Notes under the pieces: model-generated | What the model saw: only the letters and a program-made list of their open reading frames with translations | The model's database searches: none | Told to the model about the DNA's origin: nothing | Program-made: the position numbers and the translations under genes | Shown here: positions 8,121-29,391 of the stretch, one piece after another | Layout of the letters: each line of letters opens with the position of its first letter | Position numbering within the stretch: position 1 is the first letter of the stretch | Assembly: GCF_000425365.1 (NCBI RefSeq) | Contig: NZ_AUDH01000018.1 | Location: 1 to 64,000, forward strand | Length of the DNA stretch: 64,000 nucleotides | Direction: 5' to 3' | Source of the DNA: Rubritepida flocculans DSM 14296 | GTDB lineage: Bacteria > Pseudomonadota > Alphaproteobacteria > Acetobacterales > Acetobacteraceae

Positions 8121-8285
8121 CATGCCAGCGGCCGCTGATTTCCACTCCTGAGGAGCCGGTGCGGCCGCTGGCATGCCTCTGTTTCGGCGCGCAGCCGCCA
8201 CGCCGGGTCCCACCGAAGCAAAGCTTCGATGGGTGCCCGCCAACTCTGCGCGCGATACGGTTGGCATGTCGTGCCGGCCGCATCA
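8121..8285. repeat. Dispersed three-hairpin element, copy 1
   Basis: Hairpin 1 has perfect 15-bp arms CATGCCAGCGGCCGC (8121-8135) and its complement (8161-8175). Hairpin 2 has arms GCGCGCAG (8187-8194) and CTGCGCGC (8246-8253). Hairpin 3 (8254-8285) is the GATACGG...CATCA terminal palindrome. The loop of hairpin 2 carries a 37-bp insertion absent from the other copies. The last three bases are the TGA stop of the convergently read glycosyltransferase gene. Homologous copies lie at 12824-12980 and 29211-29391. Confidence 0.88.
8205..8241. repeat. 37-bp palindromic insertion nested in repeat copy 1
   Basis: Compared with copies 2 and 3, copy 1 carries 37 extra bases between CGCCACGCC and AACTCTGCG. 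The extra piece is itself a near-palindrome: CCCACCGAAGC, loop AAA, GCTTCGATGGG, with GGGT and GCCC outside. It looks like a second, smaller mobile palindrome that landed in the loop of hairpin 2. Confidence 0.65.
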
Positions 8286-9284
8286 GCCCAGCATGGGTAC
8301 GAGCTGGCTGCGAAAGGTCTCGGCGCAGGCGGGCCAGGAGAAGCGCTCGGCCTGGGCGCGGGCGCGGGTGCGCGGCACCTCCAGCGCGGCGAGGCTGGCG
8401 CGGCGCAAATCCTCGTCCAGCACCCCGCCCGGGCCCACCACGTCCTTGGGCCCCATCACCGGATAGGCGGCCACCGGCGTGCCGCAGGCCATGGCCTCCA
8501 GCAGCACGAGGCCGAAGGTGTCGGTGCGCGAGGGGAAGACGAAGACATCCGCGCCGCGATAGGCGTCGGCCAGCGCCGCGCCGTGCCGCCAGCCGGCGAA
8601 ATGCACGGAAGGATGCGCAAGCTGCAGCGCCGCGCGCTGCGGCCCGTCCCCCACCACCACCTTGGAGCCGGGCAGCTCGAGCGCGAGGAAGGCGCCGATG
8701 TTCTTCTCCACCGCCACCCGCCCCGCGTAGAGAAAGACCGGCCGCGGCAGCCCGGCCCAGGCGTCGCGCGGGCCCTGGTCGGAGAACAGCGCGAGGTCCA
8801 CGCCCCGGCTCCAGGGCAGGATGCGGCGGAAGCCGCGGGCGGCCAGCTCCTCGCGCAGGCTGGGCGTGGCGGCGAAGACGCCCTGCCCCGCGTTGTGGAA
8901 CCGCCGCAGCCAGGCCCAGATCCAGCGCGGCGGAAGGCCGGTGCGCGCCGAGACGTATTCGGCGAAGCGCGTGTGGAAGCTGGTGGTGAAGCGCCAGCCC
9001 CTCTCCCGGCAGAGGGCGCGCGCGGCGAGGCCCAAGGGGCCTTCTGTGGCGATGTGCAGCGCCTCCGGCCGCGCCGCGTCCAGCATGGCCGCGAGCCGCG
9101 CGCGCGGCAGGAAGGCGAGGCGGATGTCGGCGTAGCCGGGCATGGGAAAGCTGCGGAAGCGGTCGGGGCCGATCACCTCCACCGAATCGCCCAGCGCCTG
9201 CATCTCCTGCATCACGCGCTCCAGCGTGCGGACCACGCCGTTCACCTGCGGCCGCCAGGCGTCCGTGACGATGACGACCCTCAT
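8283..9284 (-). CDS. GT4-family glycosyltransferase, probable lipid glycosyltransferase
   Basis: 333 aa. The N-terminal Rossmann half starts RVVIVTDAWRPQVNGVVRTL and contains HIATEGPLGLAARAL and TTSFHTRFAEYVSARTGLP. The C-terminal half has FLYAGRVAVEKNI, VVVGDGPQRAAL, FAGWRHGAALADAYRGADVF, and the EX7E-like FPSRTDTFGLVLLEAMACG. It is closest in style to glycosyltransferases acting on diacylglycerol or phosphatidylinositol. It follows the PlcP-like gene by 13 nt in the same operon, which suggests it glycosylates the diacylglycerol that PlcP releases. That function is inferred. Its TGA is the outermost part of repeat copy 1. Confidence 0.82.
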   Translation of the reverse strand: MRVVIVTDAWRPQVNGVVRTLERVMQEMQALGDSVEVIGPDRFRSFPMPGYADIRLAFLPRARLAAMLDAARPEALHIATEGPLGLAARALCRERGWRFTTSFHTRFAEYVSARTGLPPRWIWAWLRRFHNAGQGVFAATPSLREELAARGFRRILPWSRGVDLALFSDQGPRDAWAGLPRPVFLYAGRVAVEKNIGAFLALELPGSKVVVGDGPQRAALQLAHPSVHFAGWRHGAALADAYRGADVFVFPSRTDTFGLVLLEAMACGTPVAAYPVMGPKDVVGPGGVLDEDLRRASLAALEVPRTRARAQAERFSWPACAETFRSQLVPMLG

Positions 9285-9297
9285 GCGGAGCGGCGCA

Positions 9298-10089
9298 TCA
9301 GGCGGGCAGCGCCTCGCGCTGGCGGGAGGGCGCGCGCTGCACCGCCGCCCAGTCGAGCAGCTCGAAGCGGCCGTCCTGGTGTTCGAGCAGCGCCGTGCAG
9401 CTTTCCACCCAGTCGCCGTCGTTCATGTACATCACGCCGTTCACCATGCGCATCTCGGCGTGGTGGATGTGGCCGCAGATCACCCCGTCATAGCCGCGGC
9501 GCCGCGCCTCTCCGGCCAGCGCCGTCTCGAAGCGGTCGATCGCCTTCACCGCCTCCTTCACCTGGCGCTTCAGCCACTGCGAGAGCGACCAGTAGGGCAG
9601 GCCCAGCCGCCGCCGCGCCAGGTTGAACCAGCGGTTCAGCACCAGCGCCGTGTCGTAGGCCCAGTCGCCCAGATAGGCGAGGAACTTGGCGTAGCGGATC
9701 ACGCCGTCGAACTCGTCGCCGTGCAGGACGAGGAAGCGCCTGCCGTCCGCCGCCAGATGCTCGGCCTCGCGCACCAGCTTCACGCCCTGGATTTCGAGGC
9801 CGAGCCAGTCGCGGAACATCTCGTCGTGGTTGCCCGGGATGTAGATCACCTCGGTGCCGTTCTGCGCGAGGTCGAGCACGGCGCGGATCACCGCGTCGAA
9901 CTCGGGGTGCCAGTACCAGGATTTGCGCAGCCGCCAGCCGTCCACCACGTCGCCCACCAAGTAGAGGCGCTCGCAGCGCACGCGCGAGAGGAAGTCGAGC
10001 AGCATGTCGGAGCGCGAGCCGCGCGTGCCGAGGTGGATGTCGGAGAGAAAGACGCTTCGCACGACCATCGGCGCTTCGCGGGTGGGCAT
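9298..10089 (-). CDS. plcP: PlcP-like metallophosphoesterase (phospholipase C type)
   Basis: A calcineurin-like phosphoesterase related to UDP-2,3-diacylglucosamine hydrolases and to the phospholipase C PlcP of rhizobia and roseobacters. Metal motifs are present in order: FLSDIHLGTRGSRSDMLLDF, YLVGDVVDGWRLR, IYIPGNHDEMF, FLVLHGDEFDGV and ICGHIHHAEMR. The C-terminal NDGDWVESCTALLEH is also conserved in this subgroup. I start at the ATG at 10089; ATGs at 10068, 10098 and 10182 are also in frame and the true start is uncertain. Co-transcription with a GT4 glycosyltransferase matches the known plcP-agt pairing used to replace phospholipids with glycolipids under phosphate shortage. No clear Pho box was seen upstream. 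Confidence 0.8.
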   Translation of the reverse strand: MPTREAPMVVRSVFLSDIHLGTRGSRSDMLLDFLSRVRCERLYLVGDVVDGWRLRKSWYWHPEFDAVIRAVLDLAQNGTEVIYIPGNHDEMFRDWLGLEIQGVKLVREAEHLAADGRRFLVLHGDEFDGVIRYAKFLAYLGDWAYDTALVLNRWFNLARRRLGLPYWSLSQWLKRQVKEAVKAIDRFETALAGEARRRGYDGVICGHIHHAEMRMVNGVMYMNDGDWVESCTALLEHQDGRFELLDWAAVQRAPSRQREALPA

Positions 10090-10246
10090 TCCGGCCATCC
10101 GTGGGCTGTGGATGACGCGCGCAATGCGAGGGATTTCCGCGCTTCGCACGTGAAGCTTGCGTGACCTCCGCGCCCTGCGCATGTCTCGCGGACGACGCGG
10201 AACCGAAAGCGAATCGCCACGATCGCCCTGCTATCGGCTCCGGTTC

Positions 10247-11110
10247 ATGTGGATCGTGTTCAACCCGACGGCAGGCGCCGCGCGGCGCCGCCGCCTGGAG
10301 CGCGCGGCCGCCCTTCTCCCCTCCGCCCGCATCGTCGAGACCGGCGCCCCCGGCGACGCCACGCGCCTCGCCGCGGGCGCGGCGGCGGAGGGCGCGCGGG
10401 TGGTGGTGGCGGCCGGCGGCGACGGCACCATCGCCGAGGTGGCGGCCGGGCTCGCGGGCAGCGGCGCCGCGCTCGGCATCCTGCCCTTCGGCACGGCGAA
10501 TGTCCTGGCGCGCGAGCTCGGCCTGCCGCTCGATGCCGAGGGCGCGGCGCGCGTGATCGCCACGGGGCGGCGGGGGATGCTCCGGCCCGGCCTCGCGCGC
10601 GACGCGGCGGGGAACGCGCGGCTCTTCGTTCAGATGCTGGGGGTGGGCCTGGATGCGGCGGTGGTGCACGCGCTGCCGCCCGGGCTGAAGCGGCGGCTCG
10701 GCGCGCTCGCCTATGTGGTGCAGACGCTGCGGCTGCTGCCCAGGCACCCCTTCGCGCCGCTGCGCCTGCGCGCCGATGGCGGGCCCTGGGAGGAATGCGT
10801 GGCGCTGCTGGCGATGAAGGGGCGGCTCTACGCCGGGCCCTTCGTGGTGGCGCCCGAGGCGCGGGCGGGGATGGAGGGGTTCATCCTCGTCCTGCAGCGC
10901 CGCGGCGGCGCGGGGGCGGCGCTGCTCGCCGGGGCGGCGCTGCCGCTCGGCCTGCTGCCGCGCCTGCCCTTCATCGAGCGGCGCGCCTGCCGCGCGCTGG
11001 AGGTGGAGGGCGCGGGGCTGCTCGCCCAGGCGGATGGCGACGCCGCGCCCGCGCCGCCGCTGCGGCTCAGCGACGCGCCCGCGCCGCTGCCGGTGCTGCT
11101 GCCCCGATAA
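10247..11110 (+). CDS. Diacylglycerol kinase-family lipid kinase (YegS/DgkB-like)
   Basis: 287 aa beginning MWIVFNPTAGAARRRRLERA, the usual first strand of DAGK_cat proteins; upstream in-frame codons read into non-conserved sequence. Nucleotide-binding motifs VVAAGGDGTIAEVAAGLAG and LPFGTANVLARELGLPL are intact, and VQMLGVGLDAAVV matches the conserved GxGxDA turn. The C-terminal half is the beta-rich YegS-like domain. It is divergent from the plcP-glycosyltransferase operon. A role in re-phosphorylating diacylglycerol made by PlcP is attractive but inferred. Confidence 0.8.
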   Translation: MWIVFNPTAGAARRRRLERAAALLPSARIVETGAPGDATRLAAGAAAEGARVVVAAGGDGTIAEVAAGLAGSGAALGILPFGTANVLARELGLPLDAEGAARVIATGRRGMLRPGLARDAAGNARLFVQMLGVGLDAAVVHALPPGLKRRLGALAYVVQTLRLLPRHPFAPLRLRADGGPWEECVALLAMKGRLYAGPFVVAPEARAGMEGFILVLQRRGGAGAALLAGAALPLGLLPRLPFIERRACRALEVEGAGLLAQADGDAAPAPPLRLSDAPAPLPVLLPR

Positions 11111-11262
11111 GGCAGGGGCTTCGCCCTTTCGCCCCCACCGTGCCGAGACTTCCCGAAGCCCCCGGCGCGCGCCGCGGGGCGAGGACGCGTTGGACAGGGA
11201 CATCGGGCCGCAGGCCCCCGCGCGAACGACCCACCCGACGGCCACCGCCCGCCGCGCGGCGC

Positions 11263-11652
11263 GCTTTCGCCCGCGCCGCCCTGCCCGCCGCCCAGGCCGA
11301 GAGCCGCAACGCCGAGGCGCTGCTCGCCGCCGCCGAGGCGGGCCGGGAGGAGCTGCGCCTCATCGCCCGCCAGATCGAGGCGCTGGAGCCGCAGGCGCGC
11401 GAACTCGCCGCAGGCGCGCGAGCTCGCCACCGCGCGCGACGAGGCCGACCGCACGCGGCGCATGCCTCTGGACGGCGTGGTGAACCGCGTCTCCGTCGAT
11501 CCGGGCGAATATGTGCTGGCGGGCCAGCGGATCATGCTGGTGCACGACCCCTCCGCCATCCGCATCGAGGCCGATGCGAAGCAGACGGAGCTGCGCCACT
11601 TCCGCATCGGCGCCCCGGTGCGCGTGACGCTGGATGCCTGGGGCTGGCGCGC
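11263..11652 (+). pseudogene. HlyD/EmrA-type membrane fusion protein remnant, frameshifted
   Basis: One frame gives a coiled-coil segment (AAQAESRNAEALLAAAEAG, LRLIARQIEALEPQARELA). The +1-shifted frame continues ELATARDEADRTRRMPLDG, VVNRVSVDPGEYVLAGQRIM and LRHFRIGAPVRVTLDAW, a lipoyl/barrel half typical of HlyD/EmrA adaptors. The break coincides with a 19-bp direct duplication (11391-11409 and 11410-11428, one mismatch); removing one unit joins the frames exactly. The N-terminal anchor and the C-terminus are missing, so this is a decayed fragment. It lies between the lipid kinase gene and a convergent gene. Confidence 0.75.
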
Positions 11653-11684
11653 GGTGTTCTTCCTCAGCCGCCAAGCGGCGCTCC

Positions 11685-12734
11685 TCAGCGCCCCAGCGCC
11701 GCGATCTCCTTCTCCAGCGCGGCGATCTCGCTGCGCAGGCGCTGCAGATAGGCGTCGCGCTGGGCGATTTCCGCGCGGGTCTTGAGCTTCCAGTTGTGCG
11801 CGGTGGTGATGTCCTGCCGCTTGCGGCGGATCAGTTCGCGCAGCTCCTCGCGCCGGGCGGCGCGATACTCGGCCTCCGGGTCGCGCAGGGTGGGCGGGGG
11901 CAGCGGGTCGAGATGCGGTCGGGGCGGGGCCTCCTCCGCGGCTGCGGGCTCGGGCGCGGGCGGCTCGGGCACCCAGAGCGCGCCGCCCGCCGCCACCGCC
12001 TCGAAGAGGCGGATCAGCACGGACCAGCGCATCAGCCGCGCCTCGGAGAGCGGAAGGGCCTCGGGCGCATCCTCCCCGCCGCGCAGCGTCCAGCCGGCGC
12101 TGCGCCGCGCCTCCACCGCCGCGCGGAAGCGCGCCGCGGCGCTTCTTCCGTAATGCTCGGCCAGGAAGCCCTCCACCTCGGCGAGGCCCGCCACCGGGAG
12201 GCCCCGGCGGTGGCGGCGCCAGGCGCGCATCACCTCGCGCGCGTCGAGCAGCGCCTCCAGCCGCTCCCAGGCGCCGTCATGGAAGGGCTCGGCAAGCCAG
12301 AGCCCCGCCCAGCGCAGCAGATAGGCGAGGCGGGCCGCGCCCTCGGCCAGCATCTCCGGCGCGCCGCCCCAGCGCAGCACGCCCCAGAGCGCCGCGGCCC
12401 CGAGCACGGCCAGCCCCGCCGTGACCGCGAGGGTGCCGGCGCTCAGCCCCACCGCGGCGAAGCCCAGCGCGGCGAGGGCGGCGGCGTCCAGCAGCAGCAG
12501 CAGCCCGGCGCGCAGCCGCGCCCGCAGCCCCACCCGGCGCGGCCGCCGCCGCCGCGTCATGCGCGAGGGGGCGGGGGCGGGCCGGGCGCCGGCCGCCGCG
12601 CCCTGGGCGGCCAGCAGGGCGCGCGAGCGGGCGAGCAGCCGCGCGACATCCTCCCGCCGCTCGGCAAGGCCGCTCTGCTCCAGCCGCGCGACCAGCGCGC
12701 GCAATTCCGCCTGGCGGGCCGCCTCCGCGCGCAT
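11685..12734 (-). CDS. Hypothetical membrane protein with terminal coiled coils
   Basis: 349 aa; I do not recognise a family. The ATG at 12734 has an excellent AGGAGG five bases upstream, so I prefer it to the GTG at 12740, which overlaps that site. Residues 1-40 form a charged helix, followed by a basic RRRRPRRVGLRARLR stretch. Two adjacent hydrophobic segments follow (LLLLLDAAALAALGFAAVGL and TLAVTAGLAVLGAAALWGVL). The middle is Ala/Arg-rich and ends in a Pro-rich linker. The last 70 residues are a predicted coiled coil ending LRSEIAALEKEIAALGR. Repeat copy 2 lies upstream. Confidence 0.7.
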   Translation of the reverse strand: MRAEAARQAELRALVARLEQSGLAERREDVARLLARSRALLAAQGAAAGARPAPAPSRMTRRRRPRRVGLRARLRAGLLLLLDAAALAALGFAAVGLSAGTLAVTAGLAVLGAAALWGVLRWGGAPEMLAEGAARLAYLLRWAGLWLAEPFHDGAWERLEALLDAREVMRAWRRHRRGLPVAGLAEVEGFLAEHYGRSAAARFRAAVEARRSAGWTLRGGEDAPEALPLSEARLMRWSVLIRLFEAVAAGGALWVPEPPAPEPAAAEEAPPRPHLDPLPPPTLRDPEAEYRAARREELRELIRRKRQDITTAHNWKLKTRAEIAQRDAYLQRLRSEIAALEKEIAALGR

Positions 12735-12823
12735 CCGCACCTCCTGCGGCCACTCTGCGCGGCGGAGCTTGACAGGCGGTGAATCGGCGCGAACCCGCGG
12801 CCGCCCGCCGACCCGGCCTGCGC

Positions 12824-12980
12824 GATAGGTCCGGCGTGGCCGCCGGCCGTATCATACCAGCGGCCGCTGATTTCGACTCCTGAGGAGCCGGTGCGGCCGC
12901 TGGTATGCTTGTGTTTTGGCGCGCAGCCGCCACACCAACCCTGCGCGCGATACGGTCGGCATGTGATGCCGCCCGTATCA
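12824..12980. repeat. Dispersed three-hairpin element, copy 2 (most complete)
   Basis: Order: outer palindrome (12824-12854, GATAGG...CGTATCA); hairpin 1 (arms CATACCAGCGGCCGC 12853-12867 and complement 12893-12907); hairpin 2 (GCGCGCAG 12919-12926 and CTGCGCGC 12941-12948); outer palindrome (12949-12980, GATACGG, inner CGGCAT-GTG-ATGCCG, CCGTATCA). Both ends read TGAT inward. The right end supplies the TGA stop of the M48 peptidase gene. The left end lies 90 bp upstream of a start codon, so no stop is involved there. Confidence 0.88.
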
Positions 12981-13943
12981 CGCCGCGAGCGGCCCCGGAT
13001 CCTCCCCGCCGGCGTAGCGCACCATCGCCGCCACGCGCGCGGCGATGGGCGGATGGGTGGCCCAGAGCGCCGGCCCGCGCGCCAGAGCGGCGTCGTCCAG
13101 CATCATCGCCCGCACCAGGCTGGGCAGTTCCGGCAGGGCGCTGCGCCCTTCGATGCGGCGCAGCGCGCGGATCATCGCGTTCGCGTCGCCGGTGAGGCGC
13201 ACCGCCTCGGCATCCGCCTGGAACTCGCGGTTGCGCGACAGGGCGAAGCGCAGCACCGCCCCGAGCGCGGCCGCGAGCAGGATGAGCAGCAGCCCGACCA
13301 GCGCCGCCGCCCCCGCGCCCCCGCGCCGGTCGCCGCCGCCGCGCGGCAGACGGAAGCGCGCGCGGGAGAAGGCCTCGACGAAGAAGGTCAGCATCCCCGC
13401 GAAGATCGCCGCCACCACCCCGAGCCGCGCATCCCCGCCGCGGATGTGCGCGAGCTCATGCGCCAGCACGGCGCGCAGCTCCTCGCGGCCCAGCGCGTCG
13501 AGGAGGCCGCGCGTCACCGTCACCTGGCCCTCGGCGCGCGAGAGGCCGGAGGCGAAGGCGTTCAGCGCGGGCACCTCCATCACCGCCAGCCGCGGCATGC
13601 GCTCGCCGCGGCTGATGCACAGCGCCTCCATCTCGTTCCACAGCAGCGGCTCCTCGCGCCGCGTCACGGGGCGCGCGCCGGTCACGCCGTCGAGCAGGCG
13701 CTGGTGCGCGGCCCAGGCGATGGCGAACCACAGCAGCGCGAGCAGGAGGCCCGCGAGCAGGGCGCCCGGCAGCGCATTCCAGGCGAGGCGGAAGGCCTGC
13801 GCCTCCGTCTCCGCCACCCCGGCGGCGAAGAGCAGCGCGAGGCCGAAGATCAGCAGCGCCAGCAGAAGCGGGAAGCCCGCCAGCAGCAGCGCGCATTTCC
13901 AGTTGTTGTTCCAGACGCGGGTGGAGAGGCCGATGGCCCGCAT
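12978..13943 (-). CDS. M48-family metallopeptidase (HtpX-like)
   Basis: A membrane zinc peptidase of 321 aa. Two N-terminal membrane segments (about residues 20-42 and 58-80) precede the peptidase domain. The zinc motif is VLAHELAHIRGGD (HExxH), with REFQADAEAVRLTGD supplying the third ligand glutamate. A further hydrophobic pair lies between (AALVGLLLILLAAALGAVL). MPRLAVMEVPALNAFASGLS is typical of HtpX-type proteins. It follows lemA after 3 nt; lemA-htpX pairs are common and are linked to membrane protein quality control. Its stop codon is part of repeat copy 2. Confidence 0.9.
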   Translation of the reverse strand: MRAIGLSTRVWNNNWKCALLLAGFPLLLALLIFGLALLFAAGVAETEAQAFRLAWNALPGALLAGLLLALLWFAIAWAAHQRLLDGVTGARPVTRREEPLLWNEMEALCISRGERMPRLAVMEVPALNAFASGLSRAEGQVTVTRGLLDALGREELRAVLAHELAHIRGGDARLGVVAAIFAGMLTFFVEAFSRARFRLPRGGGDRRGGAGAAALVGLLLILLAAALGAVLRFALSRNREFQADAEAVRLTGDANAMIRALRRIEGRSALPELPSLVRAMMLDDAALARGPALWATHPPIAARVAAMVRYAGGEDPGPLAA

Positions 13944-13946
13944 CCC

Positions 13947-14504
13947 TCAGAACTTCACCTCCGGCGGGGCCTGGGTGGCGGCGCGCTCGGCCTCGCCCAG
14001 CTCGAAGAAGCCGCGCGGGGCGAAGCCGAGCGGGCGGGCGAGGAAGACCATGGGCAACTGCTCGGTGGCCGTGTTGTATTCCTGCACCGCGTTGTTGAAG
14101 AAGCGCCTTGCGGCGGCGATGCGGTTCTCGAGCTCCGACAGCTCGCGCTGCAGCTCGAGGAAGTTCGTGTTGGCCTTGAGCTCCGGGTAGGATTCCGCGA
14201 GCGCGAAGAGCTGCCGCAGCGCCCCCTGCAGCGCCCCTTCGGCCGCGCCCGCCGCCTCGGGCCCCTGCGCGGAGAGCGCGGCGTTGCGCGCGCGCACCAC
14301 GGCCTCCAGCGTCTCGCGCTCATGGCCGGCATAGCCCTTCACCGTGGCGACCAGGTTCGGGATCACGTCATGCCGCTGCTTGAGCTGCACCTCGACATCC
14401 GCCCAGGCCTGGTTCGTGACCTGCCGCAGCGCGACCAGGCGGTTGTAGAGCAGCACCAGAAGCCCGACCGCCGCCAGGGCGAGGGCGAGAATGATCCATT
14501 CCAT
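13947..14504 (-). CDS. lemA: LemA family protein
   Basis: 185 aa: a short N-terminal membrane helix ([20 protein letters not shown]) and a long helical LemA domain. Conserved features include [36 protein letters not shown], the [20 protein letters not shown] segment and [16 protein letters not shown]. The C-terminus ends in the usual [20 protein letters not shown]. The precise activity is unknown. It is encoded immediately ahead of the M48 peptidase, so the two probably act together. Confidence 0.92.
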
Positions 14505-14655
14505 CGGCGGTCTCTCCTGCGGCGGCGCGCGCAGGCTAGCCGCATCGGCCCGCCCCCGCCCAGCGCCCCTTGCGCCGCGGGCCCGCTTGGCCTATGCGCG
14601 CCGCTTCAACGGCCGGGCCGCCATCGCGGCCTGCCGCATCCCACAAGGCCGCGCC

Positions 14656-14880
14656 ATGAAGCCCGACACCCATCCCGACTATCACGAGATCACCGTCATC
14701 ATGACGGACGGCAGCAGCTTCACCACGCGGAGCTGCTGGGGCAAGCCGGGCGACACGCTGCGCCTCGACATCGACCCGAAGAGCCATCCGGCCTGGACGG
14801 GCGTGCAGCGCATCATCGACACGGGCGGCCAGGTGGCCAAGTTCAACAAGAAGTTCGGCGGGCTCGGCATCAAGAAGTAG
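14656..14880 (+). CDS. rpmE: 50S ribosomal protein L31
   Basis: 74 aa: [20 protein letters not shown], then [20 protein letters not shown] and [17 protein letters not shown]. Size and the N-terminal HPDYHEI motif identify L31. The zinc-binding CxxC pairs of the C+ form are absent (a single Cys remains), as in the C-minus type common in alphaproteobacteria. It is a monocistronic gene; GC-rich inverted repeats follow it (about 14933-14967) without a clear T-tract. Confidence 0.93.
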
Positions 14881-14983
14881 CCGCCCGGCGCGCCCGGCGG
14901 CCGCATCGCGGCCGGCGCCCCGCTCGCTTCGCGCGCCCCGCCGGGCTGGCCTCGGGCGGGGCGCGTCGCGTTGCGCCGCCCCC

Positions 14984-15012
14984 CTTGAAGCCGGGCGGCG
15001 GCCTGCCTAGCT
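14984..15012 (+). promoter_or_regulatory. Sigma32-type heat-shock promoter of the Hsp20 gene
   Basis: CCCCCTTGAAG (CTTGAAG at 14984-14990) matches the RpoH -35 consensus, including the preceding C run. CCTAGCT at 15006-15012, 16 nt further on, is a plausible -10. The predicted start would fall at about 15018-15021, immediately before the first leader hairpin. Seen by consensus matching only. Confidence 0.6.
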
Positions 15013-15019
15013 CATGGAT

Positions 15020-15127
15020 CGCCAGGGCGCCCGGACGGGGCCCTGGCGCGGACCCGAAGCGACGCCGCCCGCGTGGGGCGTCGCGGCAGGGCCGCCCCAC
15101 ACGAACCTTGCTCCTGAAGGGGGTTCC
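15020..15127 (+). promoter_or_regulatory. ROSE-like RNA thermometer in the Hsp20 leader
   Basis: The leader folds into stacked hairpins: 15020-15048 (CGCCAGGG...CCCTGGCG) and 15059-15084 (GCGACGCC...GGCGTCGC). The final one is 15103-15126, where GAACC pairs with GGTTC and CTCC with the GGGG of the ribosome-binding site. The final arm contains TTGCTCC, the ROSE hallmark (UUGCU facing the Shine-Dalgarno). The ATG follows at 15128. ROSE elements repress small heat-shock genes at low temperature by hiding the ribosome-binding site. Structure by eye; not computed. Confidence 0.75.
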
Positions 15128-15592: not shown

Positions 15593-15623
15593 TCCGCGGG
15601 CCGGCCAGGCGCCCATGCCCGAG

Positions 15624-15656
15624 GGGCCGGCGGGGGAGACCCTGCCGGCCCTTTTT
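15624..15656 (+). terminator. Rho-independent terminator of the Hsp20 gene
   Basis: GGGCCGGC (15624-15631), a 12-nt loop and GCCGGCCC (15644-15651) form a perfect 8-bp stem, followed directly by TTTTT (15652-15656). It sits 31 nt after the Hsp20 stop. Confidence 0.88.
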
Positions 15657-15770
15657 CCTGCGGCCCTGTCGCGCAAGCGGCATGCGATGCCGCCCCCAAT
15701 CATCGGGCGTTGCGCCCCCGCGCCGCCCGCCGCCAATATCCCCCGTGAAGCCGGTGCGGGGAGGCGCGGG

Positions 15771-16493: not shown

Positions 16494-16522
16494 CGAGACG
16501 GCCGGCCTGACCGCCGCCCGGA

Positions 16523-17722: not shown

Positions 17723-17886
17723 TCCCTTCGACGCTTCAGACAGAGTTCCTTCGGAATGTGGCGCGCCGATGCCGACTGCCAGGGTGGGCGGATGAAGTTT
17801 TCTTCGTCTTGGCGCATGGTCCGGCCCATGGGCGTATGGTCGCGCCGCGCGGGCGGGGATTCGGTCGGGAAGGGGGCGGTTTCGAC

Positions 17887-23125: not shown

Positions 23126-23130
23126 ACGCG

Positions 23131-23158
23131 AAAAGGGCGGCGCCCGGCGGCGCCGCCC
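23131..23158 (-). terminator. Terminator between convergent hrpB and terC
   Basis: GGGCGGCGCC (23135-23144), tetraloop CGGC and GGCGCCGCCC (23149-23158) make a perfect 10-bp stem. On the minus strand it is followed by TTTT (23134-23131), so it terminates terC and may also stop hrpB transcripts. Confidence 0.8.
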
Positions 23159-23187
23159 CCCCCCTGCTTCCTCGCCTGGCGCGCGGA

Positions 23188-24204
23188 TCAATCCGCGCCG
23201 GCGATCTTGGCCTCCTTGGTCTCGCCGCGGGTCTTCCACAGCGAGAAGAGCACCCCGCCCAGGATCAGCGCGAGCGTGACGCCGAGCGAGATCGCGGGGT
23301 CGAGCTTGCCCACGATGTTGTTCCAGAAGATCTTGGCGCCGATGAACACCAGCACCATGGCGAGCGCGTATTTCAGATACTCGAAGCGGTGCACCATCGC
23401 CGCCAGCGCGAAGTAGAGCGCGCGCAGGCCGAGGATCGCCATGATGTTCGCCGTATAGACCACGAAGGTGTCGGTGGTGATGGCGAAGATCGCCGGCACG
23501 CTGTCCACCGCGAAGATCAGGTCGGCGATGTTGATGACCACGAGCGCGACGAAGAGCGGCGTGGCCGCCAGCACCATCCGGCCCTTGGCCTCGTCCCTCT
23601 CGCGCACGAAGAACTTCTGGCCGTGCAGCTCCTTCGTCACGCGCATGCGCTTGTTGAGGAACTTCACGACCGGGTTCTTCGACACGTCCGGGTCGCTTTC
23701 GGGCACCACCAGCATCTTGATGCCGGTGGCGATCAGGAAGGCGCCGAAGAAGTAGAGGATCCAGTCGTATTCCTGCACCAGCGCGGCGCCGACGCCGATC
23801 ATGACGCCGCGCAGCACGATCACCGCGATGATGCCCCAGACCAGGGCGCGATACTGGTATTTCCGGGGGATCGCGAAGTAGGTGAAGATCAGGCTGATGA
23901 CGAAGACGTTGTCGATGGACAGCGCCTTCTCGATGAAGAAGCCCGTGAAATAGGTGATGCCGGCATGGGTGCCGTCGCTGGTGGTGATGTGCCCGGCCTC
24001 ATAGGCCCACCAGATGGCGCCGCCATAGACGATGGCGAAGCCGATGTAGAAGGCGGAGAGCACGAGGCTCTCCTTGATGTCCATCTCCTTGTTCTCCTTG
24101 TTGAGAACGCCGAGATCGAAGGCCAGCAGGGCGAGCACGACGGCGATGAAGCCCACCCACATCCAGATGGGCTTGCCGACCCATTCGAGGGCCAGAAATT
24201 CCAT
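23188..24204 (-). CDS. TerC family integral membrane protein (Alx-like)
   Basis: 338 aa with about nine membrane segments. Diagnostic stretches are AFDLGVLNKENKEMDIKESL, YFTGFFIEKALSIDNVFVIS and DLIFAVDSVPAIFAITTDTF, the two Asp-containing repeats of TerC/Alx proteins. The family is linked to manganese export and tellurite resistance. The 5' leader holds an inverted repeat (24248-24276), but no yybP-ykoY signature was recognised. The C-terminal KTRGETKEAKIAGAD is a soluble tail. Confidence 0.92.
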   Translation of the reverse strand: MEFLALEWVGKPIWMWVGFIAVVLALLAFDLGVLNKENKEMDIKESLVLSAFYIGFAIVYGGAIWWAYEAGHITTSDGTHAGITYFTGFFIEKALSIDNVFVISLIFTYFAIPRKYQYRALVWGIIAVIVLRGVMIGVGAALVQEYDWILYFFGAFLIATGIKMLVVPESDPDVSKNPVVKFLNKRMRVTKELHGQKFFVRERDEAKGRMVLAATPLFVALVVINIADLIFAVDSVPAIFAITTDTFVVYTANIMAILGLRALYFALAAMVHRFEYLKYALAMVLVFIGAKIFWNNIVGKLDPAISLGVTLALILGGVLFSLWKTRGETKEAKIAGAD

Positions 24205-24247
24205 GACGCTTCTCCTCCGCGGCGGGTCGAATGCTTCCTGGCCGCCG

Positions 24248-24276
24248 CGATGTTGGCAGGAAGATCCGACATCGCG
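24248..24276 (-). promoter_or_regulatory. Hairpin in the terC leader
   Basis: GCGATGT and ACATCGC are perfect 7-bp arms, extended by two further pairs (GG/CC), enclosing a loop of about 10 nt. It lies 45-75 nt upstream of the terC start. It could be a regulatory leader structure or a protein-binding site; the sequence does not match the manganese riboswitch consensus as I know it. Confidence 0.35.
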
Positions 24277-24462
24277 GTGAACGGGGGATTGCCCGCCCAG
24301 CCGCCAGAGGGGCCCGGATCGCGCCGCTACATGGCGCAGCCGTAACGCGGATGCAAGGGGGAACTGAACCGGGGCTGAACCGATCCGTGACGCTGCCGGA
24401 AGAAGGGCGCGGCCTCATTGCATCGCGCCGCGCCCCGCCCCACATGGCGGGCGCGGGACGGT

Positions 24463-24491
24463 TTGCGCTCGCGCCGCGCGCGCACTAGTTT
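24463..24491 (+). promoter_or_regulatory. Possible sigma70 promoter of tatA
   Basis: TTGCGC (24463-24468), a 17-bp spacer and TAGTTT (24486-24491) lie about 40 nt upstream of the tatA ATG. This is the only reasonable -35/-10 pair with 17-bp spacing seen in this stretch. Confidence 0.4.
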
Positions 24492-24530
24492 CCCGGCACG
24501 AAAAAGCTCTCACGGGATCGAGGCGCGACG

Positions 24531-24812
24531 ATGGGTTCCTTCAGCATCTGGCATTGGTTGGTCGTTCTGCTCGTCGTGCTGCTGCTCTTCGGCAGCGGCA
24601 AGATCAGCAGCCTGATGGGCGACCTCGCCACCGGCATCAAGTCGTTCAAGAAGAACATCAAGGACGACGAGAAGCCCGCCGACGCCTCGATGACGGCGGA
24701 ATCCGCCCCGCCCGCCGCCCCGGCCGGCACCATCCCCGGCCCGCAGGGCGCGACCGCCACGGCGGCCCAGGCCCAGCCCGAGGGCGCCTCGGGCCCGCGC
24801 CCCGCGGCCTGA
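24531..24812 (+). CDS. tatA: Sec-independent protein translocase TatA
   Basis: 93 aa. The N-terminal membrane helix [20 protein letters not shown] is followed by the hinge [20 protein letters not shown] and a charged amphipathic helix, the standard TatA layout. The tail is Ala/Pro-rich. tatB and tatC are not adjacent; in many alphaproteobacteria they are elsewhere. The family proteins form the pore-lining oligomer for folded proteins such as the Tat-leader MBL hydrolase predicted at 18558-19553. Confidence 0.93.
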
Positions 24813-24829
24813 TCGCGTCATCCCGCCAG

Positions 24830-24856
24830 GGCCGGCGCGCCCCCGCGCCGGCCTTT
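24830..24856 (+). terminator. Terminator after tatA
   Basis: GGCCGGCGCG (24830-24839), a 4-nt C loop and CGCGCCGGCC (24844-24853) form a perfect 10-bp stem followed by TTT. It ends only 8 nt before the mtnB start codon, so it separates tatA from the mtn genes unless read through. Confidence 0.7.
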
Positions 24857-24864
24857 CGCATGTC

Positions 24865-25479
24865 ATGACCCCCATTCCGATCGAGGCCATCGAGGCGATC
24901 CGCGCCGCCGGGCGCCGCATGGACGCGCGCGGCTGGGTTCCGGCCACCGCCGGCAACATCTCGCTGCGCCTCGCGGACGGGCGCATCGCCATCACCCGCT
25001 CGGGCGTCCACAAGGGCTTCATCCCCGAGGACGGGGTGATGACGGTGGACCTCGAGGGCAGGCCGGAGGCCTCCAACCTCCGCCCCTCGGCCGAGACGGG
25101 GCTGCATTGCGGCATCTACCGCCGCTTCCCCGGCGCGGGGGCGGCGCTGCACGGGCATTCCGTGGCCGCCACCACCCTCTCGCGCCGCCGCGGCGACCAT
25201 GTGCTGCTCGCGGGCTATGAGCTGCTCAAGGCCTTCCCCGGCCTGGCCACGCATGAGGCCGCCATCCGCCTGCCCATCCTGGACAACGACCAGGACATCG
25301 CGCGGCTTCAGGCCCGGGTGGAACAGGTCTGGGATGCCGACCCCGCGCATCCTCCGGGCTACATCCTGCGCGGCCATGGCGTATATGTCTGGGCCGAGGA
25401 CATGCCGGGGGCGCTGATGCGCCTCGAGGCGCTCGAATTCATGCTGGCCTGCGAACTCGAAGCCGCGCGCCTGCCCTGA
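24865..25479 (+). CDS. mtnB: Methylthioribulose-1-phosphate dehydratase
   Basis: 204 aa class II aldolase-fold enzyme of methionine salvage, cytoplasmic and zinc-dependent. GWVPATAGNISLRLADGRI and TRSGVHKGFIPEDG are the conserved N-terminal motifs. ALHGHSVAATTLS supplies metal histidines and YILRGHGVYVWAEDMPGAL the third ligand, followed by the EALEFMLACELEAARL helix. It is first of mtnB-mtnD-mtnC. mtnA, mtnP and mtnK are not in the window. Confidence 0.93.
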   Translation: MTPIPIEAIEAIRAAGRRMDARGWVPATAGNISLRLADGRIAITRSGVHKGFIPEDGVMTVDLEGRPEASNLRPSAETGLHCGIYRRFPGAGAALHGHSVAATTLSRRRGDHVLLAGYELLKAFPGLATHEAAIRLPILDNDQDIARLQARVEQVWDADPAHPPGYILRGHGVYVWAEDMPGALMRLEALEFMLACELEAARLP

Positions 25480-25507
25480 CCACCCCGCTTGGAAGGGAGA
25501 GACCGCC

Positions 25508-26047
25508 ATGAGCCGCCTCACCGTCTGGGACGCCGACACCAAGGCCGAGCTGCTCCGCACCGAGAACCCGGAGGAGATCGCCGCCACCCTCAAGGCCGTG
25601 GGCGTGCGCTTCGAGCGCTGGCCCGTGGCCGATCTGCCCGAGGGCGCCGGGCCCGAGCAGGTGCTCGAGGCCTATCGCCCGCGCCTCGACGCCTTCCTGG
25701 CCGAGACCAAGGCCGGCACGGCGGACGTGATCCAGCTCACGCCCGACCACCCGATGAAGGACGCGCTGCGCGACAAGTTCCTCAAGGAGCACACCCACAC
25801 CGAGGACGAGGTGCGCTTCTTCCACGAGGGTGCCGGCAATTTCGTGCTGCACATGAACGGCAAGGTCTATGACGCCCACTGCACGAGGGGCGACCTGATC
25901 AGCGTGCCCGCGAACACCCGCCACTGGTTCGACAGCGGCGAGGCGCCGCGCTTCACCGTGCTGCGCGTCTTCACCGACAGCTCGGGCTGGACGCCGCACT
26001 ATACCGGCACGGACATGGCCGAGCGCTTTCCCGTCGTCGTCGGATAG
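25508..26047 (+). CDS. mtnD: Acireductone dioxygenase
   Basis: 179 aa cupin that oxidises acireductone to the keto-acid precursor of methionine (Fe form) or makes CO (Ni form). The metal motif is HTHTEDEVRFFHEGAGNFVL with the third His in ISVPANTRHWFD. LSTHxHPDHP-like sequence LTPDHPMKDALRDKFLKEHT is also typical. The ATG follows a strong GGAAGGGAGAG. It lies 28 bp after mtnB in the same direction. Confidence 0.94.
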   Translation: MSRLTVWDADTKAELLRTENPEEIAATLKAVGVRFERWPVADLPEGAGPEQVLEAYRPRLDAFLAETKAGTADVIQLTPDHPMKDALRDKFLKEHTHTEDEVRFFHEGAGNFVLHMNGKVYDAHCTRGDLISVPANTRHWFDSGEAPRFTVLRVFTDSSGWTPHYTGTDMAERFPVVVG

Positions 26048-26094
26048 TCTCGGGGCGGGGCCGGCGGCCCCGCCTCCCCCGCGCGGACGCCCCG

Positions 26095-26760
26095 ATGATC
26101 ACGCATCTGCTCACCGACATCGAGGGCACCACCACCTCGATCGCCTTCGTCCATCGCACCCTCTTTCCCTACGCCGCCGAGGCGCTGGAAGGCTTCCTCG
26201 CGGCGCATGGCGAAGACCCCGAGGTCGCGGCCCTTCTCGCCGAGGTGCCTGGCCCCGACCGCCTCGCCACGCTGCGCGAGTGGATGGCGCGCGACGTGAA
26301 GGCCACGCCGCTCAAGGCGTTGCAGGGGCTGATCTGGCGCGCGGGCTACGCCTCGGGCGCGCTGCGCGGCCATCTTTGGCCCGATGTGCCGGGGGCGCTG
26401 CGCGCCTGGCGGGCGCGCGGCCTGCGCCTCGCCGTCTATTCCTCCGGCAGCGAGGAGGCGCAGCGCCTGCTGTTCCGGCACTCCGAGGCGGGCGATCTCG
26501 AACCCCTCTTCGAGGGCTTCTTCGACACGCGCATGGGCGGCAAGCGCGAGGCGGAGAGCTACGCGCGCATCGCCGCCGCCTGGGGCGCGCCGGCGGGGGC
26601 CGCCCTCTTCCTCTCCGACGTGGCGGAGGAGCTCGACGCCGCCCGCGCCGCGGGCTTCGCCACCTGCCAGCTCGTCCGGCCCGAGGACGGGACCACCCCT
26701 TCGGGCCGCCACCCGGAAGCCCGTGATTTCAACGATGTGACAGCCCGCCTCGGCGGGTGA
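26095..26760 (+). CDS. mtnC: Enolase-phosphatase E1
   Basis: 221 aa HAD-superfamily enzyme that enolises and dephosphorylates diketo-methylthiopentyl-1-phosphate. Motif I is LLTDIEGTTTSIAFV, motif II is LAVYSSGSEEAQRLLF, motif III includes FFDTRMGGKREAESY, and motif IV is ALFLSDVAEELDAARAAG. A strong GC hairpin (26054-26074) lies between mtnD and mtnC without a T-tract and might tune expression. It supplies the substrate of MtnD directly. Confidence 0.93.
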   Translation: MITHLLTDIEGTTTSIAFVHRTLFPYAAEALEGFLAAHGEDPEVAALLAEVPGPDRLATLREWMARDVKATPLKALQGLIWRAGYASGALRGHLWPDVPGALRAWRARGLRLAVYSSGSEEAQRLLFRHSEAGDLEPLFEGFFDTRMGGKREAESYARIAAAWGAPAGAALFLSDVAEELDAARAAGFATCQLVRPEDGTTPSGRHPEARDFNDVTARLGG

Positions 26761-26818
26761 CAGGCCGCCCGCCCACCGCTACACGCCCCCCACGTCCCGA
26801 CAGCGCGGAGCCTCGTGC

Positions 26819-27805
26819 ATGCTCACGACCTACACCGTCGAGAACGGCAAGCTCGCCCTGCGCGAGGGCATGCGCGAGGCCGAGGCGCTGCGCGCCGCCG
26901 TCTGGATCGACCTGCTGAACCCGACCCTGGAGGAGGAGCGCAGCGTCCAGGACGCGCTGGGCTTCGAGCTTCCCACCCGCGAGGAGATGCAGGAGATCGA
27001 AAGCTCCTCCCGCCTCTACCGCGAGGGCGACGTGCTGTTCCTCACGGCGAGCTTCCTGCACGGCGCCGACACGGAGGACTACGCCTCCTCCCCCATCACC
27101 TTCGTGCTCTCGCCCTCGGCGCTGGTCACGGTCCGGCACGCCACGCCCAAGGCCTTCATGGTGTTCGGCGCGCGCTGCCAGCGCACGCCCGCCCAGCTCC
27201 TCACCAGCCCGGACGCGGTGATGCTGCACCTGTTCGAGCAGATCGTGGACCGGCTGGCCGACATCCTGGAGCGCACGGGTGCGGACATGGACCGCGCCAT
27301 GCACGCCGCCTTCAAGACCGCGCGCAGCGGCGAGAAGGTGGACAAGAAGGACCGCGACCTGCGCGCCGCCCTGCTCTCGCTCGGCACGGTGGGCGAGGTG
27401 ACCGCCCGCACCGCCGAGACGCTGCTCGGGCTCACCCGCATCCTCACCTTCGTCAGCGCCGAGAAGGCGAACGCGGTGCGCAAGGAGAACCAGCCCCTGC
27501 TCAAGACGCTGGTGCGCGATGTGCGCAGCCTGGCCGAGCACGGCAACTCCCTGAACCACAAGGCGACCTTCCTGCTGGACGCCGTGCTCGGCATCATCAA
27601 CGTCGAGCAGATGAACATCATCAAGACCTTCACCGTGGTCAGCGTGGCGCTGATGCCGCCCACGCTGATCGCCAGCATCTACGGAATGAACTTCCAGTTC
27701 ATGCCCGAGCTGGAATGGACCCTGGGCTATCCGCTCGCCATCGTGATGATGCTGGCCAGCGCCATGGGGCCGATCTGGTATTTCCGCCGCAAGGGCTGGC
27801 TGTAG
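26819..27805 (+). CDS. corA: CorA-type magnesium/divalent metal transporter
   Basis: 328 aa. A soluble N-terminal domain with WIDLLNPTLEEERSVQDALG and ELPTREEMQEIESSSRLY is followed by the long stalk helix. Two C-terminal membrane segments flank the signature YGMNFQFMPEL (GMN selectivity loop). The C-terminus ends in a basic YFRRKGWL. Pentameric inner-membrane channel by family knowledge. The ATG is 58 bp after mtnC. The convergent TPR gene begins 5 bp past the stop. Confidence 0.93.
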   Translation: MLTTYTVENGKLALREGMREAEALRAAVWIDLLNPTLEEERSVQDALGFELPTREEMQEIESSSRLYREGDVLFLTASFLHGADTEDYASSPITFVLSPSALVTVRHATPKAFMVFGARCQRTPAQLLTSPDAVMLHLFEQIVDRLADILERTGADMDRAMHAAFKTARSGEKVDKKDRDLRAALLSLGTVGEVTARTAETLLGLTRILTFVSAEKANAVRKENQPLLKTLVRDVRSLAEHGNSLNHKATFLLDAVLGIINVEQMNIIKTFTVVSVALMPPTLIASIYGMNFQFMPELEWTLGYPLAIVMMLASAMGPIWYFRRKGWL

Positions 27806-27810
27806 CGGCG

Positions 27811-28380
27811 CTACATCTCCTCGCCTTCGGCCGCGCGGATCAGCTCGCGCAGCCGCTCGGCCCCGCCGGGCAGGCGCGGATGGATGGCCAGCGCGGCCTC
27901 GAAGCTGCGCAGCGCGCCGCGCGCGTCGCCCGCCTCCTCCTGCAGGCGCGAGAGGGTGACGAGGGCGGGGAAGTGGCGCGGCTCCAGCCGCAGGCATTCG
28001 CGCAGATCGGCCGCCGCCGCCGCCGCGTCGCCCGCCGCCGCATGGGCCTGGGCGCGCCAGTGCCAGGCGTCCGCGAGGCCGGGGGCCAGCACGATCGCCG
28101 CGTCGAAATCCTCCAGCGCATCGGCCGGGTTGCTGGCGCGCAGGTTGCGGATGCCGCGGTTGAGCAGCAGCGCCACCGCCGCCGTGGCCTGCCGCGCCCA
28201 GAGCTGGCGCACCACCGATTCGGCCAGCCGCGCGCCCTGCTCGTCGGGGGCTTCGCGCAGCGCCTCGAAGGCGCGATCGAGGTCGCGCGCCAGCGCGGCC
28301 CCGGGCCCTGACGGGGCTTGTGCCGCGGCGGGGCCCGCGAGCAGGATCAGGCACAGCAACGCGGCGAGGGCGTGGCGCAT
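27811..28380 (-). CDS. Secreted tetratricopeptide-repeat protein
   Basis: 189 aa. The start at 28380 gives a signal peptide (MRHALAALLCLILLAGPAAA). The mature part consists of about four TPR-like helical hairpins: LLNRGIRNLRASNPADALED, FDAAIVLAPGLADAWHWRAQ, AHAAAGDAAAAAADLRECLR and LSRLQEEAGDARGALRSFEA. It is probably a periplasmic scaffold; no partner is evident. It is divergent from the EcsC gene. Confidence 0.82.
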   Translation of the reverse strand: MRHALAALLCLILLAGPAAAQAPSGPGAALARDLDRAFEALREAPDEQGARLAESVVRQLWARQATAAVALLLNRGIRNLRASNPADALEDFDAAIVLAPGLADAWHWRAQAHAAAGDAAAAAADLRECLRLEPRHFPALVTLSRLQEEAGDARGALRSFEAALAIHPRLPGGAERLRELIRAAEGEEM

Positions 28381-28430
28381 GGCCGGATGTTCCGCGCCCC
28401 CGCGCCCCCGCGCAAGGACCAAGAGCGCCC

Positions 28431-29213
28431 GTGACCCAGGCCCTGATTCCCGCCGCGCCGCTCGACCCCGACGCCGTGCTCGACCGCGCGGCGGCGGAGT
28501 ATCTGGCGGCCCGCGGCGCGCTCACCACCGCCCTCGACCGCGCGGCGAGCGCCGTCCAGCGCGGCATGATGCGCCTGCCGCCGGAGATCCAGCGCCTCGC
28601 GGCCGAGCGCGCGCGCGAGGGGCTGGAGCTGGCCTGGCGCGTCGCCATCCTCGGCCTCGACCCCGAGACGCGGCGCGAGCACGGGGCGGCCTACCGCCTC
28701 ACCGGCGCGCTCTCCGGCGCGCTGGGCGGCTTCGGCGGGCTGCCGACCACCCTGGCCGAGCTGCCGGTCACTACCAGCCTCATCATGCGCTCGGTCGCCG
28801 ACATCGCGCGGGCGCGGGGGCTCGATCTCGGCGCGGAGGAGGTGCGGCGCGCCTGCATCGAGGTCTTCGCCTTCGGCGGCCCGCTGGAGGAGGATGACGA
28901 CGCCGACCTCGCCTTCTGGATGACGCGGCTGGCGGGGCAGGAGGTGGCGCAGCTCATCGCCGCCGTCATCGCGCGCTACGCGCCGGTGCTGGTGACGAAG
29001 CTCGGCGCCCAGGCCGCGCCGCTGGTGGGGGCGGCGGTGGGGGCCGGGCTCAACCTCGTCTACATGGCCTTCTACCAGCGCATGGCGCGGGTGGTGTTCG
29101 ATCTGCTGCCGCTGGAGCGCGCCCTGGGGCGCGAGGCCGCGCGCCGCGCCTTCGCCGCGCGGGTGGACGCGAAGCGCCGCGCCCGCGGGGAGGATGCGCG
29201 GTTCCGGCGCTGA
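28431..29213 (+). CDS. EcsC family protein
   Basis: 260 aa from a GTG start preceded by AAGAG (an AAGGA lies further up). The EcsC domain is visible in GALGGFGGLPTTLAELPVTT, SLIMRSVADIARARGLDLGA and IEVFAFGGPLEEDDDADLAF. A C-terminal hydrophobic stretch (APLVGAAVGAGLNLVYMAFY) suggests membrane association. Function unknown. The TGA stop at 29211-29213 is the first triplet of repeat copy 3. Confidence 0.82.
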   Translation: MTQALIPAAPLDPDAVLDRAAAEYLAARGALTTALDRAASAVQRGMMRLPPEIQRLAAERAREGLELAWRVAILGLDPETRREHGAAYRLTGALSGALGGFGGLPTTLAELPVTTSLIMRSVADIARARGLDLGAEEVRRACIEVFAFGGPLEEDDDADLAFWMTRLAGQEVAQLIAAVIARYAPVLVTKLGAQAAPLVGAAVGAGLNLVYMAFYQRMARVVFDLLPLERALGREAARRAFAARVDAKRRARGEDARFRR

Positions 29214-29391
29214 TGCGGGCGGCATGACATGCCGACCGTATCGCGCGCAGGGTTGGCGTGGCGGCTGCGCGCCAGAACACAGGCATGCCAGCGGCCGCAC
29301 CGCAGCTTCAGGAGTTAAGATCAGCGGCCGCTGGTATGAGGCCCGCGGCACACAGGCGTGATGCGGGCGGCATGTCGCGCCGGCCGGATCA
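29211..29391. repeat. Dispersed three-hairpin element, copy 3 (stops at both ends)
   Basis: Inverted relative to copies 1 and 2. Left outer palindrome 29211-29242 (TGATGCGG...CCGTATC). Hairpin 2 has arms 29243-29250 and 29265-29272. Hairpin 1 has arms 29284-29298 and 29324-29338 with one mismatch. Right outer palindrome 29359-29391 (TGATGCGG...CCGGATCA). The left end is the TGA of the EcsC gene and the right end is the TGA of the Bug gene on the other strand, so the element exactly fills the gap between two convergent genes. Confidence 0.88.

Follow-up and report, generated by a model that had tools for sequence, protein, structure and literature searches.

Why should the ends of a repeated DNA element fall exactly on the stop codons of neighbouring genes? 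The question is raised by a 64,000-nt stretch of the Rubritepida flocculans DSM 14296 genome (contig NZ_AUDH01000018.1, positions 1–64,000 of the forward strand; hereafter the window), in which three copies of a short repeat built of hairpins lie at gene ends. A sequence-only reading of the window had taken the repeat for a small non-autonomous element with TGAT terminal inverted repeats that replaces the native stop. We find that the TGA at the junction is a 3-bp target-site duplication: the repeat is mobile, inserts at TRA (TGA or TAA) with a fixed polarity, and retains a conserved fold. The joint explanation, namely a non-autonomous structured element that duplicates 3 bp at TRA and is moved in trans, is in our view likely.

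Read from its palindrome end, the unit consists of TRA, hairpin 1 (TACGGNCGGCAT-nnn-ATGCCGNCCGTA), the core hairpin 2 (GCGCGC-A-GGGTTGGYGTGGCGGC-T-GCGCGC), the A-rich spacer AAAACAAAGG and hairpin 3 (CATACCAGCGGCCGC-25 nt-GCGGCCGCTGGTATG), after which the triplet is repeated. All three window copies are where they had been placed, both the 15-bp-arm hairpin and the GCGCGCAG/CTGCGCGC hairpin described for them are there, and the TGAT(A/G)CGG palindrome has eight matches in the window, at four places and counting both strands, where 100 shuffles gave none. The borders had to be redrawn, though. Of the proposed pair of outer palindromes only one stands, since each unit has a single TGAT palindrome end and its other end is the 15-bp hairpin (GGTA|TGA or GGCA|TGA); what had been taken for the second palindromes of copies 2 (12824–12854) and 3 (29359–29391) are extra palindromes, and copy 1 is without any. 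The count of four stops among six element ends holds as it was made, comprising the hairpin-1 ends at the GT4, M48 and EcsC genes and the extra-palindrome end at the Bug/TctC gene. The features are as follows.

8120–8285, minus strand: copy 1, 166-nt form with 37-bp inner hairpin and both 3-bp duplications; 165.9 bits with covariance model R1 (copy 1 is part of the model's alignment)
8283–8285, minus strand: left target duplication TGA of copy 1, the stop of the GT4 glycosyltransferase gene (8283–9284, minus strand)
8120–8122, minus strand: right target duplication TGA of copy 1
12852–12980, minus strand: copy 2, 129-nt form with both duplications, from covariance model and reading
12949–12979, minus strand: hairpin 1 of copy 2 (GATACGG.CGGCAT/ATGCCG.CCGTATC), from the fold
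12919–12948, minus strand: hairpin 2 of copy 2 with the conserved core GCGCGCAGGGTTGGTGTGGCGGCTGCGCGC, from the fold
12853–12907, minus strand: hairpin 3 of copy 2 (CATACCAGCGGCCGC/GCGGCCGCTGGTATG), holding an inner hairpin and GAGTC, from the fold
12978–12980, minus strand: left target duplication TGA of copy 2, the stop of the M48 peptidase gene (12978–13943, minus strand)
12852–12854, minus strand: right target duplication TGA of copy 2, shared with the extra palindrome, read from the sequence
12824–12854, minus strand: extra palindrome TGATACGGCCGGCGGCCACGCCGGACCTATC beside copy 2, resembling hairpin 1 of a second subfamily
29211–29339, plus strand: copy 3, 129-nt form with both duplications, from covariance model and reading
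29211–29213, plus strand: left target duplication TGA of copy 3, the stop of the EcsC-family gene (28320–29213, plus strand)
29337–29339, plus strand: right target duplication TGA of copy 3
29359–29391, plus strand: extra solo palindrome TGATGCGG...GGATCA, whose TCA is the stop of the TctC/Bug gene (29389–30372, minus strand)

Judging by the subfamily comparison, the extra palindrome at 12824–12854 is probably a decayed older element in tandem.

Insertion at TRA with a duplicated triplet

The host genome (G000; 3.83 Mb, a 99.14%-complete draft in 74 contigs) holds many more copies. With copy 2 as query, at least 70 pieces matched, some 40 of which are complete or almost complete copies (the best 40 of 275 candidates), and the palindrome pattern, with up to three mismatches, matched at least 102 times per strand, the reversed-pattern control matching nowhere. 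Within the stretches that were fetched, 84 palindromes were collected, and the 70 with the core next to them served as the working set; the right end was found for 67, leaving three left ends without a partner. A right-end search contributed 30 further candidates, which include the second subfamily and about four spurious overlaps, so that the family in this genome numbers roughly 95 as a lower bound. Most copies with a right end (53 of 67) are either 129 or 166 nt long, the longer form having an additional hairpin of 37 bp within the core loop.

At both borders of these 67 copies the triplets usually agree (59/67; permutation p = 0.008), reading TGA/TGA in 57, TGA/TCA in four, TAA/TAA in two, and TGA/TAA, TGA/CGC, ATG/TGA and TCA/TGA in one each; a third TAA/TAA copy is found among the second set of 30 candidates. 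Left triplets across the 70 copies are TGA (65), TAA (3), TCA (1) and ATG (1). The agreement is clearer still in G082, a genome from another genus of the same family, whose 13 copies (interiors almost identical in the 10 that were read) carry the pairs TGA/TGA (5), TAA/TAA (5), TTA/TTA (2) and CGA/TGA (1), that is, 12 of 13 in accord (permutation p = 2e-5). The element ends are thus TAC... and ...GTA within a TRA duplication rather than TGAT terminal inverted repeats, and the T that follows TGA belongs to the element.

A relative allowed insertion sites to be compared with their empty state. Roseococcus sp. SKW89 (L060), reached via the EcsC protein (95% identity), is syntenic with the host genome and ~92% identical in DNA; SKW89 and genome G013 match at the same places, and ~629 kb of G013 were compared together with the earlier loci. 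Some flank match in the relative was obtained for 19 of 70 copies and a usable left flank for 12. One site, C27:28472, is exactly empty, the relative reading CTGGAGGGG-TGA-GCGG against CTGGAGGGG-TGA[TACGG...GGTA]TGA-GCGG in the host; C22:44388 is empty as well, save that a base next to it differs. Every one of the relative's 12 orthologues has TGA as its stop, placed at the same codon in 11 and one codon earlier in the other, and the bases that follow are T,G,G,G,G,T,T,G,G,C,C,G. Ten of these sites have no visible element, one has a diverged element of its own, and one has TGATACC after the stop, which is perhaps a decayed copy; the relative does hold copies of its own. In the window, copies 1 (by locus comparison) and 3 are absent from SKW89, and no match to the left flank of copy 2 turned up in the portion of the relative's genome that was compared. 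The GT4 orthologue has its TGA stop at the same codon, and the Bug orthologue ends at the same codon as well, but, by eye, with TAG. The empty site and the uniform TGA of the orthologues indicate that the native stop came first and was duplicated, not replaced.

Tabulated against gene calls, 48 of the 70 left ends are gene stops, 20 are intergenic and two lie inside genes; three of the intergenic copies are 115 nt behind a gene end only through an intervening IS110-type piece. A codon model trained on 34 open reading frames (ORFs) of the window concurred, with 48 of 69 testable left triplets closing the best coding frame, and in the second set 19 of 30 left ends were stops. Outside the elements, the same stretches contain 183 TGA stops and 323 non-coding, non-stop TGAs, from which 36% would be expected; the excess (p = 3.7e-8) bears out the suspicion that a small non-autonomous mobile element settles at gene ends far more often than by chance. 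TAG was the stop at none of the 48 stop-placed copies, as compared to 47 of 237 other stops (p = 2.5e-5). This avoidance suggests that a DNA motif, TRA, is read rather than termination as such. With the same kind of codon model, trained on G000 and therefore rough elsewhere, 19 of 30 copies in nine other genomes passed the stop test (G087 4/4, G072 4/5, G152 3/3, G162 3/5, G157 2/3, G103 1/2, G041 1/1, G131 1/6, G054 0/1), but none of the 10 fetched sites in G082.

Insertion is also polar. Although TGA and TCA are one site seen on two strands, hairpin 1 adjoins TGA or TAA in 68 of the 70 host copies, and it stands beside TGA/TAA rather than TTA in 10 of the 12 agreeing copies of G082. This side bias shows insertion to be strand-specific. 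It would not be a product of selection for intact genes, given that either orientation keeps the stop.

These comparisons show that the element inserts as TAC...GTA with a 3-bp duplication at a target that is TRA in G000 (TGA far more often than TAA) and fits TNA in G082, almost always in the orientation that puts hairpin 1 directly 3′ of the TRA strand. Since the triplet is duplicated, insertion at a stop codon leaves the stop in place. An enzyme supplied in trans may recognise the folded ends, the core hairpin or both and make a 3-nt staggered join at TRA. Stop codons would prevail because, of all TRA sites at which insertion neither breaks a reading frame nor parts a gene from its promoter, they are the most frequent.

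Competing explanations and the search for a mobiliser

Several observations weigh against this account. The triplets disagree in 8 of 67 host copies, some of which are mis-set right ends or later insertions, and in nine other genomes, where a script set rough right borders, only 18 of 30 copies agree (3/6 in G131, 0/3 in G157 and 2/5 in G162). The left-end patterns favour TGAT (with 1–5 mismatches allowed), so that rare targets may be under-counted. Two of five structure measures, pairs and types, did not exceed shuffled alignments (306/500 and 134/500 as high). Finally, no mobilising enzyme or full-length partner was found in searches that covered Y1, DUF4096 and paired ends in G082 and left other transposase families aside. 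The distant paired ends in G082 that match without mismatch delimit short elements or one solo hairpin, while those with one mismatch were not all followed (the pattern, with up to one mismatch, gave 67 matches against 19 for the reversed-pattern control).

The proposal that the TGA comes with the element and takes the place of the native stop of the gene before it would account for all three window copies, and 48 of 70 genome-wide, starting exactly at a stop. It predicts neither the TAA/TAA copies nor a triplet that varies among TGA, TAA and TTA around the near-identical elements of G082, and with all 12 relative orthologues ending in TGA, 10 of them without a visible element, we find it hardly credible. 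If the hairpins were instead immobile, a host terminator or 3′-end mRNA structure that evolved to overlap the stop, their position after the stop and their GC-richness would follow naturally, as would a slight excess at convergent gene ends (23/47 with an element vs 80/235 others; p = 0.067). However, the empty sites in the relative refute such an origin, 22 of 70 copies are not at a called stop (three owing to later IS110-type insertion), and no G082 site passes the stop test. A scan for U-tract terminators at copy 2 (12700–13100), the only copy scanned, found none. As an origin this explanation, too, is very improbable, although the hairpins may have such a role secondarily.

Two further alternatives invoke a known kind of transposase. 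Palindromic shape, polar insertion 3′ of a short motif and strong folding as single-stranded DNA are what one would expect of a repetitive extragenic palindrome (REP/REPIN) family moved by a REP-associated tyrosine transposase (RAYT; Y1, IS200/IS605-type), for which TGA would be the recognised flank. IS200/IS605 insertion, though, is not known to make a target duplication, whereas here both triplets co-vary; moreover, the TnpA_REP that the sequence-only reading suggested looking for did not turn up, PF01797 (Y1_Tnp) having no match at E ≤ 1 in G000, a 74-contig draft that may miss repeats, against 10 of 14 control genomes positive. We therefore consider a RAYT system improbable. A miniature inverted-repeat transposable element (MITE) derived from an IS5/IS1031-type or PIF-Harbinger-type DDE insertion sequence has more in its favour, as these elements use the 3-bp target TNA, which fits the duplication, and the termini read TAC.../...GTA. 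Yet a symmetrical TNA predicts TGA and TCA in equal number, and the left ends are 65 TGA to one TCA. DUF4096 insertion sequences, present in six of seven genomes checked, were examined as candidate partners: of 22 loci, nine had a clear inverted repeat, with AGAG, AGAA or CTAGGG starts and never TACC or TACG. The test is weak in G000 itself, whose six DUF4096 loci, mostly cut at contig ends, yielded no readable inverted repeat. A DDE-derived MITE is the alternative we take most seriously, albeit still with doubt.

A conserved fold and its reach beyond the genome

Copy 2 (12853–12980) folds far more stably than shuffled sequences (z = -7.98 as RNA and -7.49 as DNA). An alignment of 34 diverse members was assembled, 29 from G000, including those of the window, and five from the relative. 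RNAalifold alone gave a poor consensus on the members, and the consensus structure was instead drawn up manually on the basis of folded members, with pairs counted thereafter. In this alignment 88.8% of cells pair; changes on both sides of a pair number 70 as compared to 30.5 in shuffles, and the covariation score is 0.108 as compared to 0.067, values reached in 0 of 500 shuffles in either case. The covariation supports the structure without proving it, as kinship of the rows alone can beat such shuffles. The loop of the core hairpin is near-invariant (GGGTTGG...GGCGG), and its four G tracts could in principle form a two-tier quadruplex. GANTC occurs in 49 of 92 elements (87 from the host, five from the relative) against ~0.1 per 129 bp in the flanks, and hairpin 3 holds 49 of the 55 occurrences, each 28 nt from the right end.

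Single parts of the unit can apparently insert by themselves, as suggested by a solo hairpin 1 in the form TGA-[27 bp]-TGA at C5:17481. Other arrangements were also noted. At C44:4947 (L100 1501–1635) of G000 a second core piece (GCGCAGGGTTGGTGTGGCGGCTGCGCC) stands in for part of the hairpin 3 arm, which would be a sign of internal rearrangement, and at C2:266416–266499 (L268) and C3:2647–2773 (L271) there are tandem repeats of the core hairpin, spaced at 54 and 97 nt, that lie apart from the three-hairpin unit and apparently belong to a different, larger structure. In G082, the loop of a different repeated palindrome (TAGAGCGCGATCGGTTTAA|GTCGATCACGCTCTA) encloses elements at L182 and L184.

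By its letters, the palindrome occurs in 2 of 21 genomes of the genus, and a stricter palindrome pattern, run against 397 genomes of the family (a draw that lacked G013), matched in the host genome only. The fold reaches further. Covariance model R1, at E ≤ 0.01 with stricter filters, found members in at least 38 of 150 Acetobacteraceae genomes and 32 of 102 genera. When 40 further places in 10 genomes were read, 39 contained the central GGG(C)(T/A/C)TGG...GG-N-GG motif, as compared to nine occurrences in 80,000 flanking bases, a count that is partly circular because the model contains the core. Independently of the model, the core pattern GCGCNNNGGGTTGGN{1,4}GGCGGCNNNGCGC was present in 7 of 240 genomes of the class and in 6 among 237 outside the family, with none in the controls. 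At seven of the eight core places outside the family, the three bases that the pattern leaves unspecified pair fully (GAT/ATC, ATT/AAT, GCG/CGC, GCC/GGC, GCA/TGC); those of G638 are unpaired. In Rfam, the window at gathering threshold contains only two tRNAs and terC, leaving the element without a family, and 10 element-bearing loci at E ≤ 1 gave only tRNA. The terC hit is a cis-regulatory RNA at 24257–24325 on the minus strand of the window (49.2 bits).

Outside the family, the core adjoins tRNA genes at two sites in G407 and one in G515, and lies in the rRNA spacers of two plasmids, one from Thalassospira and one from Pararhizobium, the two cores pointing opposite ways with respect to the rRNA. 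Copy 2 itself, compared at distant sensitivity, matched no phage or plasmid; four elements from other genera and one core piece, compared with plasmids, matched cores of 29 nt in Thalassospira and 31 nt in Pararhizobium, the other matches being weak and many of them in genes. One may speculate, though we rate the idea as doubtful, that the core hairpin (GGGTTGG-N1-4-GGCGG loop) marks an undescribed alphaproteobacterial super-family moved in trans by a fold-reading enzyme that would join strand-specifically to a short motif: TRA, and hence stops, in the Acetobacteraceae, and the 3′ ends of tRNAs in certain other families. At L253, L256, L259 and L220 (G407, G515 and the Pararhizobium plasmid) the core lies near tRNA genes on the opposite strand, and at L253 TGGTGGAG is found on both sides of the unit.

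Known repeats, a later visitor and consequences for the host

In shape, judged by description only, the element comes nearest to the CcrM-associated intergenic repeats (CIR) of Caulobacter, Brucella and other alphaproteobacteria, which are described as ~110 bp long and intergenic, with two long hairpin arms, a linker and GANTC at or near the loop; the same review gives their target duplication as unknown and assigns them no terminal repeats (PMC2229807). Two outer arms and a linker can be recognised in the element described here, with GANTC in about half of its copies, but its linker holds a third hairpin, the core, and it is set apart by stop-codon placement and by the 3-bp duplication of TRA. 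REP/REPIN sequences and bacterial interspersed mosaic elements (BIME), with their RAYT (GTAG and CGTC super-families), are described as small, high-copy, polar palindromes and as IS110 targets (PMC3733652, PMC1525189). The element differs from them in being a three-hairpin unit with a 3-bp duplication and in a host genome where no Y1 gene was found; no GTAG or CGTC tag stands at the palindrome foot, the feet reading TRA-TACGG...CCGTA-TCG, and CGTC repeats are reported as missing from Acetobacteraceae (PMC3733652). YPAL/RU-2 of Yersinia resembles it, again by description only, as a ~168-bp structured mobile repeat with empty sites that may affect upstream transcripts, yet its target duplications are given as 3–26 bp, at or beside dyad symmetry (PMC2229807), in contrast to the fixed TRA target here. 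Like MITEs, the element is short, non-autonomous, clustered and nested and makes a target duplication; unlike them, its terminal inverted repeats agree in only ~7 of 10 bases (TACGGNCGGC / TACCAGCGGC, by eye), a parental insertion sequence was not found among the DUF4096 loci with readable ends, and its fold is conserved across genera. Searches of the open-licence literature listed no paper that describes an Acetobacteraceae repeat duplicating stop codons.

A second kind of element was observed at the same gene ends. In front of several copies stands ...GGTGGGTAAC | TGATACGG, one end of an inserted piece whose other end, CTAGACAG, abuts the gene and turns its stop into C-TAG. This piece is an IS110-type 117-bp miniature (CTAGACAG...GTGGGTAAC), accompanied by longer copies, that has inserted at C|T of ...CTGATACGG (in G000 at C13:15121–15237, C3:254467–254583, C21:28306–28422 and others, and at L166 860–1209). 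At both sites that could be compared, the relative's stop is TGA where the host has TAG. One longer copy, which lies at a contig end, contains the start of a reading frame, MEVLHPRCAGLDVHKDSVTAAVR, that we take to resemble IS110 transposases; its 23-residue start had no match in Pfam, for which it is too short. The non-coding end holds GGTCGGCATG and CGTATCAG, both also present in the target palindrome, and these shared words would fit the guide of a bridge RNA. IS110 elements that target REPs are on record (PMC1525189).

A folded architecture common to genera of the Acetobacteraceae, with a near-invariant loop and co-varying stems, raises the question of which enzyme moves the element. For the host, a target duplication that is itself the stop codon amounts to low-cost entry at gene ends: the gene keeps its stop and its C-terminus while hairpins enter the 3′ untranslated region (UTR), and this has happened dozens of times. 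So many insertions in one genome constitute natural replicate experiments on 3′-UTR function.

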